42,826 bases of DNA from a virus. How positions within the stretch are numbered: the stretch's first letter is position 1; every line of letters starts with the position of its first letter. The stretch is from the IMG/VR virus record IMGVR_UViG_3300023083_000002, positions 1 through 42,826 of that record, one strand, 5' to 3'. A program made the translations under genes and the position numbers. The notes under the pieces were generated by a model. The model did not search any database. It worked only from the letters and a program-made list of their open reading frames with translations, and had not been told where the DNA came from. Shown piece after piece: positions 9,544 through 32,997 of the stretch.

Positions 9544-9579
9544 AAAAAATCCCTGCCTATGTTTCCATAAGTAGGGATT
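9544..9579 (-). terminator. Hairpin with U-tract just before the portal start
   Basis: The stem AATCCCTACTTATG / CATAGGCAGGGATT (14 positions, one mismatch and one wobble, 4-nt GAAA loop) is followed by TTTTTT on the minus strand. It would stop transcripts from 9631-9664 unless relieved, giving attenuation of the portal operon. It is part of leader copy E. Confidence 0.65.
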
Positions 9580-9622
9580 AAGTTATAATTTCTGTTAAAG
9601 GTTCTACGCATCTTCACATAGG
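9548..9622 (-). ncRNA. Pseudoknot-type leader RNA, copy E (upstream of portal)
   Basis: In minus-strand RNA: S1 CCUAUGU (9622-9616), S2 AAUCCCU (9579-9573), S1' ACAUAGG (9562-9556), S2' AGGGAUU (9554-9548), then UUUU. The stems interleave as in an H-type pseudoknot. The same bases can instead form one long hairpin (AATCCCTAC..TATG with CATAGGCAGGGATT) that looks like a classic terminator, so S1 and the extended terminator stem compete for CATAGG. The S1 strand begins 9 nt after a promoter -7 box and the portal ATG lies 18 nt downstream of S2'. One of five copies of this architecture in the genome. Confidence 0.6.
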
Positions 9623-9630
9623 ATATACTG

Positions 9631-9664
9631 CAAATATATGTAAAATAAGTTTATAAAAAACAAA
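9631..9664 (-). promoter_or_regulatory. Bacteroidota-type promoter for the portal leader
   Basis: On the minus strand TTTG (9664-9661), a 22-nt spacer, then TATATTTG (9638-9631), matching the -33 / -7 pattern TTTG ... TAnnTTTG. The predicted start is near 9623, at the first bases of the S1 stem of leader copy E. It has the same -7 box and the same 22-nt spacing as the promoter at 9837-9870. Confidence 0.6.
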
Positions 9665-9680
9665 TATTATTTAAAACTAA

Positions 9681-9707
9681 AATACCGACTATATTATAGT
9701 CGGTATT
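9681..9707 (-). terminator. Strong, probably bidirectional terminator
   Basis: AATACCGACTATA (9681-9693) pairs with TATAGTCGGTATT (9695-9707): a 13-bp perfect inverted repeat with almost no spacer, flanked by T-rich DNA on both sides. It ends the short unit that starts at the 9837-9870 promoter and insulates the portal promoter from the terminase transcript. Confidence 0.8.
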
Positions 9708-9711
9708 TTTA

Positions 9712-9792
9712 TTATACATGCCCTCTTGTACTAATATGAAACCAATTCATACTTTCCTTTAAAACGAGGGGAACGGACTTATAATTTTTCAT
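9712..9792 (-). CDS. Possible 26-residue peptide in a self-contained transcription unit
   Basis: ATG at 9792 opens 26 codons starting MKNYKSVPLVLKES and ending STRGHV, with the TAA 4 nt before the terminator stem. A promoter lies 45 nt upstream. An internal in-frame ATG has a good AAAGGA-type ribosome site, unusual for this genome. The RNA also has twin hairpins sharing GAATTGGTTTC, so it may be a non-coding RNA. No similarity was recognised. Confidence 0.3.
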   Translation of the reverse strand: MKNYKSVPLVLKESMNWFHISTRGHV

Positions 9793-9836
9793 TCAAATAG
9801 AAACCAATTCTAAATGCCCTACTAAAAATGCCCAAA

Positions 9837-9870
9837 CAAATATATGTAAATTTAATTTAGCTTTTACAAA
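9837..9870 (-). promoter_or_regulatory. Bacteroidota-type promoter of the cryptic unit
   Basis: TTTG (9870-9867), a 22-nt spacer and TATATTTG (9844-9837) on the minus strand. It lies just after the stop of the 73-residue gene and directs transcription into the 9712-9792 unit. Spacer length and -7 box are the same as in the promoter at 9631-9664. Confidence 0.6.
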
Positions 9871-13408: not shown

Positions 13409-14530
13409 CTATTCGTTTTTAAGTGTTATTGGTTCGGCGCATAGTTTGAAATTGTTTTTTGAAAATTTTACTGAACTAAATAAACGATAACCTGATGGAA
13501 TTTTAAACTTTAGGATAATTCCTAAAAACAAATTATTATTATCAAGGTCTTTTTCAATTGCGACAATATAACTATCGTTTTCTAACAACTGTCCCGCCTT
13601 GCTCCATTCAATTTCAGTTTCTTGTTTTTTACCGAAACGTTCTCTGAATTCTTGGAGTGAGATTAGTTTTTTGGTTTTTGACTTATTTAAATACAGATTA
13701 AAGTAATCTGATTCTATATAAAAGAAAGCTAATTTTTCTTTATACATACTATCAAATAATACTTTCTCCCCACACGCCTTAGCAATTTCAGCGCATTCAT
13801 TCGCTTCTTCTTGATTTGAAACTTTTACTTGAACTTCTCGGATTGAAAGCGGTTTTTGTTCATCTTTGAGAAGGACATCAGTGTCCTTCTCAAAATCATC
13901 TTCTTTCAATACCCATTTTTTGAACTGATTGAAAGTTATTTCGGTGTAGGTTTCTGTGATGTGTGCATTAGCAAAATTCCATCCAGAACCAATAATATCT
14001 AAAATGTGTATTCCGTTAAAAAGATTGTGGCTGTGAAAATATTTATTTACAAAACGAATATTATTATAAATTTCATCAATTCCCCTATTAAAAAATTTTC
14101 CTATTTCGTTTATATTGTTTTCATCAGCTTTAACACACCACTTTTTAGGCAGTTCCTCCAACTCTTTTGTAGGCAAGTCGAATTTTAAAGGCTCAACACT
14201 TTCCATTTTGGAAACAGTTGTATTTGCCGATAATTCCTTTTCAATTTTATTTAGTCTTTTGCCGTAACTAGATTCAATGTCTTCAACGTACTCCCTAAGC
14301 TTATCTATTTTTGACTTCTTTAGAATGTCTTTTGCTTTGTGGATGGTGTAGCCGTGGTCTTTTGCAAATAATTTTGATGAGCAATCGCTAATTCCTTTTT
14401 CCATCGGATACAAAATACAACAGCTTTTAAAAATTTTCTTTGATACTTTCAAATCAAACATTTCAATAATCGAATCCCATTGCTTCTGCGTCTTACACCA
14501 AATGGCGTCTTTTTCTGTTAGTTTTTTCAT
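13409..14530 (-). CDS. Multi-segment hypothetical protein, 373 residues
   Basis: The longest unassigned early gene. The N-terminal 85 residues (TEKDAIWCKTQKQWDSIIEM, SKLFAKDHGYTIHKAKDILK) look like a small alpha/beta module. A coiled-coil linker follows (IESSYGKRLNKIEKELSANT). Then come the segments LPKKWCVKADENNINEIGKF and AHITETYTEITFNQFKKWVL, and after residue 230 a similar alpha/beta stretch (VQVKVSNQEEANECAEIAKA ... LISLQEFRERFG). It reads as strung-together copies of a small phage module, one ending in 'EITFNQFKKWVL' and one in 'LISLQEFRERFG'. The function is unknown; it is soluble. Confidence 0.7.
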   Translation of the reverse strand: MKKLTEKDAIWCKTQKQWDSIIEMFDLKVSKKIFKSCCILYPMEKGISDCSSKLFAKDHGYTIHKAKDILKKSKIDKLREYVEDIESSYGKRLNKIEKELSANTTVSKMESVEPLKFDLPTKELEELPKKWCVKADENNINEIGKFFNRGIDEIYNNIRFVNKYFHSHNLFNGIHILDIIGSGWNFANAHITETYTEITFNQFKKWVLKEDDFEKDTDVLLKDEQKPLSIREVQVKVSNQEEANECAEIAKACGEKVLFDSMYKEKLAFFYIESDYFNLYLNKSKTKKLISLQEFRERFGKKQETEIEWSKAGQLLENDSYIVAIEKDLDNNNLFLGIILKFKIPSGYRLFSSVKFSKNNFKLCAEPITLKNE

Positions 14531-19658: not shown

Positions 19659-19739
19659 GCCTTCCGATTTTTGTACAAGGTCTCACGTTGCACGCCAATC
19701 AAAAGGCTAATCTTTTTTTTGTTTCCTATGTTTGAGACC
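19659..19739 (-). ncRNA. Pseudoknot-type leader RNA, copy A (upstream of DUF7768 gene)
   Basis: In minus-strand RNA: S1 GGUCUCA (19739-19733), S2 GCCUUUUGAUU (19707-19697), S1' UGAGACC (19685-19679), S2' AAUCGGAAGGC (19669-19659), then AUUUUUAAUUU. S1 is perfect over 7 bp; S2 is 11 bp with two U-G pairs. The 128-nt gap between NinG and this operon holds nothing else. A TAnnTTTA-like box (TACATTTA) lies 15 nt before S1, without a clear -33. Confidence 0.6.
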
Positions 19740-19769
19740 GAAACAATTGTTTTGTAAATGTAATAAATT

Positions 19770-23199: not shown

Positions 23200-23887
23200 T
23201 TTCTTGTGATTTTAATAATAATTGCTGAAATTTTTCTCTCAATTTGCTGGTTGATAAAATATTTGATTTCCAAAATTCCCCCTCAACACTTCCTAAATAT
23301 TTGTAAACCAAAGTCAATTGTTCTTTTGTAACTCCATCACTACACATCATTAAGCGAATTGGCGTAACATAATTTTTATAAGTGGCTTTTTCTTGATTGG
23401 ACGCTGGTGCGTTTTTTTCTTTTAGGTTTTTAATGAAAAGCTTTTGATAAGCCAATGCAATTTCAAAATATTGAATCTCATTAATTTCTAAGTCTGAAAT
23501 TTTAATTTCAGATAAAAGAATTTTTTTTGTTTCTTTTAGTTTTACTTCCTCTTTAACTTTTACTTTTACTTCCCCTTGTAGTTTTACTTCCTCTTCTACT
23601 TGTTCTGTAGGGGGTGTTTTTACCCCTACAGAAGGGGGTTCAATAGGGTGTAATATTAGACCTGTTTTATCTTCATATCCTTTTACTTGACTGTCTATTG
23701 AATTAGTTTGAGAGATATAAGCGAATTTAGCCATTCCTTTTAAGCTTGTTGGCCTAATGCCTAAAAATTGTCTGTCTAATAATGCATCCATAAATGCAAC
23801 TTTATCAGAATCGTTTTCTAGTTCATTATAAACATCAAAATAAGATCTAAAGAAATTAAAACCTTTTCTTTTGGTAGGCTTATACAT
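23093..23887 (-). CDS. DUF6291-type replication-associated protein
   Basis: 264 residues from ATG 23887 (a TTG two codons upstream is less likely). The N-terminal SYFDVYNELENDSDKVAFMD, ALLDRQFLGIRPTSLKGMAK resembles the DUF6291 domain found at the N-terminus of phage replication initiators. The middle is a Lys/Val/Glu-rich linker. The C-terminal helical region RLMMCSDGVTKEQLTLVYKY, GEFWKSNILSTSKLREKFQQ, LLLKSQ resembles the DNA-binding tail of DnaD/O-like initiators. It likely acts in origin recognition or primosome loading. It overlaps the gene before it by 8 nt. Confidence 0.65.
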   Translation of the reverse strand: MYKPTKRKGFNFFRSYFDVYNELENDSDKVAFMDALLDRQFLGIRPTSLKGMAKFAYISQTNSIDSQVKGYEDKTGLILHPIEPPSVGVKTPPTEQVEEEVKLQGEVKVKVKEEVKLKETKKILLSEIKISDLEINEIQYFEIALAYQKLFIKNLKEKNAPASNQEKATYKNYVTPIRLMMCSDGVTKEQLTLVYKYLGSVEGEFWKSNILSTSKLREKFQQLLLKSQENGKSGNYKSGNTTPTTDELAEQSYSAVAKLLGRTQ

Positions 23888-24107
23888 TATCAACCTCGCT
23901 TTCTGTTATTTTATTTATTTCCGTACGAAGTGTTTTAGCGAACTTGATTGCTGTAGATTTATCAAGCCAAATAGCAAATTCATCATCTCCGCTAATTCCG
24001 AAAATAGTAATAACATTTCCTAATTCAGTATCAGAATCAATAACTTCTGTCTGTATTGAATCTCCTTCAGAAACACAATCTAAAAATTTTAATTCAAATT
24101 TAGCCAT
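23880..24107 (-). CDS. Small hypothetical protein after leader copy B, 75 residues
   Basis: ATG 24107 (MAKFELKFLDCVSEG) is chosen over an upstream in-frame start that would run through the leader. It is acidic: QTEVIDSDTELGNVITIFGI, FAIWLDKSTAIKFAKTLRTE. The 'iwLdk..aikfaktLr.ei' end is common in small phage proteins of unknown function. It is the first gene of the replication operon driven by the promoter at 24250-24280. Confidence 0.6.
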   Translation of the reverse strand: MAKFELKFLDCVSEGDSIQTEVIDSDTELGNVITIFGISGDDEFAIWLDKSTAIKFAKTLRTEINKITESEVDNV

Positions 24108-24160
24108 AATAAATAAAGGTTTTAAGTTCCAATAAACTATTAAGTTGATAAAAAAACAAA

Positions 24161-24238
24161 ACTCCAATAAATCCCCGCTCATCACTTCGGTTCATTATTG
24201 GAGTTGTTTAAGACTGACGTTGGTATAATGTGATGAGC
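24161..24238 (-). ncRNA. Pseudoknot-type leader RNA, copy B (upstream of replication operon)
   Basis: The clearest copy. In minus-strand RNA: S1 GCUCAUCAC (24238-24230), S2 ACUCCAAUAA (24204-24195), S1' GUGAUGAGC (24185-24177), S2' UUAUUGGAGU (24170-24161), then UUUGUUUUUU. Both stems are perfect (9 and 10 bp) and interleave in H-type order. The S1 strand begins 11 nt after the -7 box of a canonical promoter, so the structure is at the 5' end of the transcript, about 50 nt before the first ATG. Confidence 0.72.
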
Positions 24239-24249
24239 CAACTACATAA

Positions 24250-24280
24250 CAAAAATACGATAATATTTTAAACACACAAA
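24250..24280 (-). promoter_or_regulatory. Canonical Bacteroidota promoter of the replication operon
   Basis: TTTG (24280-24277), a 19-nt spacer, TATTTTTG (24257-24250) on the minus strand. It fits the TTTG-N19-TAnnTTTG consensus exactly, starts directly after the HTH gene stop, and would start RNA near 24242. Confidence 0.75.
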
Positions 24281-29219: not shown

Positions 29220-29270
29220 ATCCCCGCCACTTCGCTACAAAATGACAGGGATAAAAAGTTTAGTGTAGCG
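29220..29270 (-). ncRNA. Pseudoknot-type leader RNA, copy D (lysis block)
   Basis: The most compact copy, 51 nt. In minus-strand RNA: S1 CGCUACA (29270-29264), S2 AUCCCUGUC (29252-29244), S1' UGUAGCG (29239-29233), S2' GGCGGGGAU (29228-29220), then UAAUUUUUAAAUU and the ATG at 29199. S1 is perfect; S2 has nine pairs, two of them U-G. It lies 14 nt downstream of the endolysin terminator U-tract. A TAnnTTTA-like box (TATCTTTA) is 4 nt before S1. Confidence 0.6.
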
Positions 29271-29283
29271 ATTGTAAAGATAA

Positions 29284-30624: not shown

Positions 30625-30632
30625 TATGTTTG
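30625..30632 (+). promoter_or_regulatory. Promoter -7 element of the plus-strand cassette
   Basis: TATGTTTG on the plus strand fits TAnnTTTG. No good TTTG lies 19-22 nt upstream. A start near 30639 would place S1 of leader copy C at the 5' end of the RNA. On the opposite strand a weak TTG-N22-TACTTTTA (30635-30603) overlaps it and could serve the lysis block, so the two operons may share a divergent promoter region. Confidence 0.45.
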
Positions 30633-30641
30633 CAATGTAGT

Positions 30642-30726
30642 TCACGACCTACGGAAAAATATAGCTAACTTTTTTAGCAATTAAAGAACCCTGCATCGTG
30701 TCGTGACTTTGCAGGTTTTCTTTTTT
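30642..30726 (+). ncRNA. Pseudoknot-type leader RNA, copy C (plus-strand cassette)
   Basis: In plus-strand RNA: S1 UCACGAC (30642-30648), S2 CCUGCA (30690-30695), S1' GUCGUGA (30700-30706), S2' UGCAGG (30710-30715), then UUUUCUUUUUU. The order S1-S2-S1'-S2'-U-tract is the same as in the four minus-strand copies. The 41-nt stretch between S1 and S2 can form a small local hairpin (GCUAA / UUAGC). The YopX-like ATG follows 13 nt after the U-tract. Confidence 0.6.
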
Positions 30727-32669: not shown

Positions 32670-32942
32670 ATGACAAAAGAATTTAAGTTTAAAAACGGAG
32701 ATGAAGTTATTGAAAAAGTAACAGGATTCAAAGGAGTTATAACAGGAACTGCTTTTTATCTTACCGGATGCACTCAACATTTAATTACTGCCAAATGTGA
32801 AAGGCAAGATAAAGAACCAATTGCATTGTGGTACGATGAAGGGCGCTTGGAATTCGTTAAAGAATCATTTACAGAAAAAGATGTAAAAGGATCTGATAAT
32901 GGTTGTGACATTTTGCCAAACATCGGAATTAAAGGAAACTAA
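32670..32942 (+). CDS. Conserved small protein, 90 residues (SH3-like barrel probable)
   Basis: FKNGDEVIEKVTGFKGVITG, TAFYLTGCTQHLITAKCERQ, EPIALWYDEGRLEFVK. The 'GD-V-D-vTGFkGvItg-a-YLTGC-qyli' block and 'eP---WyDE-RLe' are a well-known phage and bacterial small-protein pattern, likely an SH3-like barrel. The role is unknown. It is the last gene before the convergent terminator. Confidence 0.75.
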   Translation: MTKEFKFKNGDEVIEKVTGFKGVITGTAFYLTGCTQHLITAKCERQDKEPIALWYDEGRLEFVKESFTEKDVKGSDNGCDILPNIGIKGN

Positions 32943-32943
32943 A

Positions 32944-32978
32944 AAAAATCCCCTGTCGAATCAACGCAGGGGATTTTT
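32944..32978. terminator. Bidirectional terminator between convergent operons
   Basis: AAAAATCCCCTG (32944-32955) pairs with CAGGGGATTTTT (32967-32978), a 12-bp perfect stem with an 11-nt loop. T residues follow on the plus strand and A-tract gives U's on the minus strand, so it ends both the plus-strand cassette and the tail operon. Confidence 0.9.
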
Positions 32979-32997
32979 CATTTTAAACATATAATAC

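Follow-up and report, generated by a model that had tools for sequence, protein, structure and literature searches.

Structured leaders and kissing loops are both known kinds of RNA element. In H-type leaders such as that of T4 gene 32, and in H-type riboswitches (preQ1-I, SAM-II), a 5' segment contacts a hairpin loop at a distance, as it does in the phage leaders analyzed here; in the latter, however, this segment (S1) usually forms a hairpin loop of its own, no conserved core sequence is apparent, many unrelated copies occur per genome, and nearly all copies have a terminator-like end. The plasmid kissing leaders (ColE1 RNAI/RNAII and the antisense attenuators of pT181 and pMV158) likewise form loop-loop helices of ~7-9 bp near terminator hairpins, but they join an antisense RNA to its target, whereas here both loops lie in one leader and no antisense gene was seen. 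The put RNA of HK022 and the EAR element of Bacilli resemble our leaders as structured RNAs near operon starts with a possible action on polymerase, yet they share no sequence with them; put consists of two hairpins without a known kissing contact, and EAR has a conserved sequence. The SP82 early RNA and the ompA 5' hairpin also sequester the 5' end in a helix at +1, but as single hairpins that have neither a kissing contact nor a terminator-like tail. Intrinsic terminators and attenuators share the order of G+C-rich hairpin base, U-tract, and gene; in the present leaders, by contrast, the large apical loop pairs, the U-tract is interrupted, and there is no alternative antiterminator pairing.

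The original prediction, which did not recognize the leaders as any described class, agrees with an Rfam search at the gathering score, which gave no family match at the leaders of the analyzed genome, three cultivated phages, and six orthologous loci. A search of the open literature likewise found no description of a kissing leader. As far as we found, the combination of elements, its recurrence, and its structure-only conservation are undescribed. Separately, a known cis-regulatory motif, the DUF805b RNA (RF02914), was detected above the gathering score in phage morran9-1 (L002 12838-12872) and below it in the related contig L155 (2733-2764).

Architecture of five leaders in a flavobacterial phage

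The analyzed sequence (hereafter, the window) is a 42.8-kb virus record of 42,826 nt from a siphovirus-like flavobacterial phage (terminase, portal, major head protein, Erf, NinG, methylases), in which the minus strand carries the genes from 2 to 30 kb. Each of the five leaders, A to E, precedes the first gene of its own transcription unit. In this order, they stand before a 75-aa gene of PHROG 33177 (gene A; 23880..24107, minus strand), a deoxyribosyltransferase-like gene, a 104-aa gene, the portal gene, and a plus-strand operon. At least one promoter-like site of the window (17868, minus strand) has no kissing leader. The original prediction had proposed that the five share an interleaved order of pairing arms (S1, S2, S1', S2') followed by a U-rich tract. 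Every arm of the five S1/S1' and S2/S2' sets was found in place, mechanical scans recovered all five leaders, and A, B, and E came out near the top of the interleaved structures ranked in the window. When each leader was dinucleotide-shuffled with its promoter box held fixed, the real layout was superior at all five sites: shuffles scored as well in 0/2000 cases for A and B, 3/2000 for D, and 0/3000 for C, and for E 2/2000 equaled the layout score and 0/2000 the kissing score.

Most leaders differ from the predicted pseudoknot type, which holds for site C and leaders like it; the others are two hairpins joined loop to loop. The original prediction had missed that S1 lies inside the loop of a 5' hairpin (P1) at A, B, and E, and weakly at D. 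Judged by sequence comparison, the leader class is a loop-loop (kissing) complex of two hairpins. In most leaders, the short hairpin P1 begins at about +1 and holds S1 in its loop (GUAAUG-AA-GUGAGAAG-CAUUAC is an example from relatives), an A-rich linker follows, and S1' caps a second, long hairpin (P2) as its apical loop. P2 often carries an additional upper helix (P3), and the U-rich tract comes after it. The leaders are ~75-110 nt long, with a pairing of 6-12 bp between the P1 loop and the apical loop and a U-rich tract of 11 nt. Sequence preference is limited to the A-rich linker (AAAGAAAUUAUA-like) and the U-tract, and the stems are free to change. The H-type pseudoknot reading was dropped because P1 encloses S1 in most leaders, as seen in orthologs, and the P1 pairs covary.

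Leader A (24160..24242, minus strand) follows an exact TAnnTTTG -7 box (TATTTTTG, 24250..24257), with a TTG 19 nt upstream. Its arms were checked, it withstood the shuffles, and it matches the covariance model at E 2.2e-5. P1 (24242-24238/24223-24219) pairs GUUGG with CCAAC, S1 (24238-24230) kisses S1' (24185-24177) over 9 bp, and the 11-bp P2 (24205-24195/24170-24160) is followed by the U-rich tract UUGUUUUUUUA (24149..24159). Leader B (19659..19746, minus strand), whose arms also checked and withstood shuffling, is a weak match to the covariance model and stands behind a promoter-like box lacking the last G (TACATTTA, 19755..19762); it comprises P1 (19746-19740/19725-19719, UUGUUUC/GAAACAA), the kissing arms S1 (19739-19733) and S1' (19685-19679), P2 (19707-19697/19669-19659), and P3 (19693-19688/19678-19673, GUGCAA/UUGUAC). 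On the plus strand, leader E (30636..30715) follows an exact box (TATGTTTG, 30625..30632) and is built of P1 (30636-30640/30649-30653), with S1 at 30642-30648, S1' at 30700-30706, and P2 at 30690-30695/30710-30715, followed by UUUUCUUUUUU; its arms checked and withstood shuffling.

The minimal leader C (29220..29270, minus strand) has no P1. Its box (TATCTTTA, 29275..29282) again lacks the last G, S1 (29270-29264) starts at about +1, and the 13-bp P2 (29252-29240/29232-29220) closes a loop of exactly 7 nt (29239-29233) that is complementary to S1 throughout. The same subtype was found in its close-relative counterpart L234 and in leaders of L155, L215, and L091. Here S1 (UCGCUACA) starts 3-5 nt past the box, at the expected transcript start, and S1' lies in the P2 loop; only in this subtype is S1 single-stranded outside the loop pairing.

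Leader D (9548..9625, minus strand), ahead of the portal gene, follows an exact -7 box (TATATTTG, 9631..9638) with a TTG 22 nt upstream; the arms checked and withstood shuffling, and a weak P1 (9625-9622/9612-9609) accompanies S1 (9622-9616), S1' (9562-9556), and P2 (9579-9573/9554-9548). Just upstream of leader D, positions 9680-9844 (minus strand) combine a TAnnTTTG promoter and a strong terminator with a repeated GAATTGGTTTC and ~160 nt in which no clear ORF is seen, and represent a candidate phage sRNA; the element is missing at the same place in the related loci L084 and L085.

The TAnnTTTG box that had been noticed at three sites is exact at A, D, and E, and the proposed spacing of 9-11 nt to S1 is only roughly right, the distances being 11 (A), 15 (B), 4 (C), 8 (D), and 9 nt (E). 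With the box as an anchor, 22 matches with an exact box scored at or below -30 in the window and related loci (2.18 Mb), compared to 1 in a shuffled copy. The unanchored permissive scan finds many chance pseudoknots in coding DNA and is too permissive for single sites. In a search run without the anchor, boxes were concentrated 0-20 nt upstream of S1, in 23 real cases versus 2 shuffled ones. The prediction that the structure forms the 5' end of the transcript is supported, since P1 begins 3-7 nt past the box in 47 of 61 leaders and the box was mapped at -12 to -5 in F. psychrophilum (PMC9723704), which puts the start of P1 at about +1. Therefore, the first transcribed nucleotides would be buried in a helix in both subtypes. 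The leaders stand directly ahead of an operon's first gene or of a single inserted gene, and their placement identifies them, at the level of sequence, as cis-acting 5' mRNA elements directly behind host-type TAnnTTTG promoters.

Covariation and spread among phages

A search with the gene A protein yielded 80 loci, nearly all with a kissing leader. In close relatives, promoter and layout recur at corresponding positions, the stems being wholly different; P1, P3, and the A-rich linker were recognized from reading these relatives side by side rather than from the window alone. The covariation proposed within one genome was borne out, and it proved much stronger between genomes. In 42 aligned leaders, two-sided changes, counted without regard to common descent, occur at 30 of 34 pairs and in 250 cells, compared to 90.7 (sd 6.7) in shuffles, and 79.4% of the cells are paired (61.4% in shuffles). 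All parts of the fold contribute: two-sided changes were observed at 9/9 kissing pairs (85% of kissing cells being paired), 12/14 pairs of P2, 5/7 of P1, and 4/4 of P3. The covariation score of 0.479 compares with 0.192 in shuffles (0/500 as high) and with a maximum of 0.137 in slid versions, a control that retains relatedness. Stems of non-orthologous leaders have no relation to each other. In energies taken as simple stacking sums, loops pair with their own partners at a median of -15.5 kcal/mol versus -6.0 with the loops of other leaders, and cross-pairing among the five window leaders is weak. The proposal that the leaders form one family is supported.

A strict descriptor (box, P1, kissing pairing, P2, at least 4 U in 8, ORF) returned 87 distinct leaders, many of the loci being metagenome fragments, compared to 5 in two shuffled copies (2-3 per copy). 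Gene A homologs follow 52 of them, and 35 were counted ahead of other genes, a number that includes a few with a gene A homolog behind (e.g., window A and morran9-1). Complete or long relative records hold 1-4 leaders each, versus 0-0.2 after shuffling. A covariance model of the nested part finds window leader A and, weakly, B, as well as the cultivated phages 11b, Harreka_1, and morran9-1, all three of which were in the training set. The same data served to tune the descriptor, so the argument is carried by the covariation, the shuffles, and the phages outside the training set. Two such phages, Cellulophaga phage phi10:1 and Tenacibaculum phage JQ, carry leaders; that of JQ has a 12-bp kissing helix and the box TATATTAG. 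The cultivated phages with leaders have Flavobacterium, Olleya, Tenacibaculum, and Cellulophaga hosts. When bacterial genome contigs were queried with the gene A and Erf proteins, no relative turned up.

Two further loci touch on the scans and on annotation. A strong terminator between convergent operons of the window (32890-32986, plus strand) scores in the leader model at E 0.007, probably owing to the likeness of P2 to plain terminators, and was not reported by the kissing-leader scans. In morran9-1, the annotated CDS morran91_gp042 (L002 14157-14300) overlies the leader at 14186-14285 and is probably spurious.

Inspected by eye, the N-termini encoded behind the leaders point to DnaB-like and primase-like proteins, endonucleases of GIY-YIG and HNH appearance, and portal proteins. 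The position-B leader of one close relative has different stems and stands before a different gene. Nearly every strong match has an ORF behind it; a stand-alone sRNA reading was dropped, given that only two strong matches lack an ORF within 90 nt and neither is convincing. Endonuclease-like genes with their own promoter and kissing leader were seen at L177 3491, L154 308, L155 2188, L172 2140, and L188 1764, where, judging from the free-standing endonucleases read by eye, the leader appears as if it were part of the mobile GIY-YIG/HNH gene.

Terminator-like ends and rival readings

The terminator-like end noticed in the window recurs as a hairpin and U-rich tract in nearly all leaders, with a stable hairpin followed directly by the U-tract, as in an intrinsic terminator; a few leaders, such as those of L044 and L105, lack the tract. 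The frequency of U past the hairpin is 0.89-1.00 at positions 1-4, ~0.9 (0.89) at positions 9-10, and ~0.3 after position 11. In each of the 64 gene A leaders, the best 8-nt stretch contains 5 U or more. Median tail scores are -4.0 to -4.4, and nearby scores lie at about -0.3 to -1.3. The tract frequently contains interruptions (UUUUACUUUUU) and is weaker than that of plain terminators of the same genomes. It tracks the hairpin rather than the AUG, which lies 7-24 nt off in most leaders and 42-52 nt off in gene A. A classic attenuator with mutually exclusive pairings is unsupported, as no alternative antiterminator pairing of the P2 arms was found above chance (-5.67 versus -5.86 and -5.62 versus -5.48 in shuffles). 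Since, in addition, the kissing contact and P2 are mutually compatible, the RNA alone shows no switch.

Because the U-tract stays with the hairpin at any distance from the AUG, we tentatively favor, at somewhat under an even chance, a terminator close to the promoter, leaky or under the control of a factor, whose efficiency the kissing contact would set. We infer that the P2/P3 hairpin and U-tract would together form a moderately strong, promoter-proximal intrinsic terminator, and that the kissing contact would form once S1' exits the polymerase and would set how often termination occurs. Phage operons on ordinary host promoters would thereby gain a second, post-initiation control, which a candidate phage or host factor reading P1, the kissing helix, or the A-rich linker might switch, and the same fold would hide the 5' end and stabilize the transcripts that pass. 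The genes that follow the leaders are unrelated, with early, late, and likely homing-endonuclease genes among them, an assortment that suits a general role as well as it suits regulation.

A close rival, given the buried 5' end and the missing antiterminator pairing, is a 5'-end mRNA stability cap, in which the first nucleotides would be locked in a helix (P1 or S1), tightened by the kissing contact, and 5'-end-dependent RNases would be blocked, the U-tract serving as a single-stranded spacer. The burial common to both subtypes, the many unrelated genes behind the leaders, and the precedent of the SP82 early RNA, a phage 5' stabilizer in B. subtilis, speak for it; however, it leaves unexplained why the terminator-type U-tract is fixed even where the AUG is ~50 nt off and why one 5' hairpin would not suffice, and we consider it rather unlikely. 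Chance pairing in AT-rich intergenic DNA, which the apparent pseudoknots of the permissive scan in coding DNA might suggest, is refuted: dozens of orthologous leaders carry compensatory changes, the shuffled controls agree, and the probability of this reading is negligible. It is also quite improbable that the leaders act on polymerase in the manner of put and EAR, binding it during elongation and letting it pass their own weak terminator and later ones: the compact two-hairpin fold at the start of several operons per genome would suit such a role, but put and EAR retain contact sequences, whereas only the A-rich linker shows a preference here while the stems vary, and some window operons terminate strongly just ahead of the next promoter.

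Translational control is improbable as well, if a little less so. Here P2 lies 7-24 nt upstream of most AUGs, and either the A-rich linker or the U-tract would provide a site for standby or for protein binding, the protein perhaps being a PUR-like gene A product. The nearby AUG of leaders other than A fits this reading, but the gene A AUG lies 42-52 nt away, behind another element. The predicted model of the gene A protein (pLDDT 84) resembles PUR nucleic-acid-binding repeats, which make up its ten best PDB matches, yet these matches have TM about 0.6 and E 0.05 or worse, and sequence profile searches with gene A gave no support for a PUR assignment; a PUR-like partner of the leader is a lead only. 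Homolog alignment revealed constant N- and C-termini and a hypervariable middle, a pattern suggestive of diversifying selection acting on a small protein that binds nucleic acids. Between the U-tract and the gene A AUG lies a second small RNA element (24105..24140, minus strand), in which an invariant UUUA/UAAA pairing is interleaved with a covarying 3-bp stem to form a mini pseudoknot (covariation 0.187 versus 0.067 in shuffles; 40 aligned homologs). This element is a candidate operator of the gene A protein.

Implications for Bacteroidota phages

Bacteroidota hosts have an unusual promoter and use no Shine-Dalgarno pairing, and to our knowledge little is known about how transcripts of their phages are timed or protected. 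The recurrence of the leaders within each genome, among unrelated phages and genes, and their purely structural conservation point to a shared step that all such transcripts must pass. As leaders occur in cultivated phages (morran9-1, 11b, Harreka_1, JQ, and phi10:1), this step is measurable. The leaders also provide dozens of naturally evolved kissing pairs that are useful for RNA design. It is possible, though we would put it at below an even chance, that they constitute a general 5' module, in which a kissing-hairpin cap, conserved in structure only, is attached to most promoters of flavobacterial phages. This cap would both seal the 5' end and gate early elongation, and it would travel with genes, even likely homing endonucleases, while its stems are freely rewritten. 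If true, this module would represent a phage-wide RNA solution that lets phages use host promoters while keeping control, or evade RNA decay by the host.
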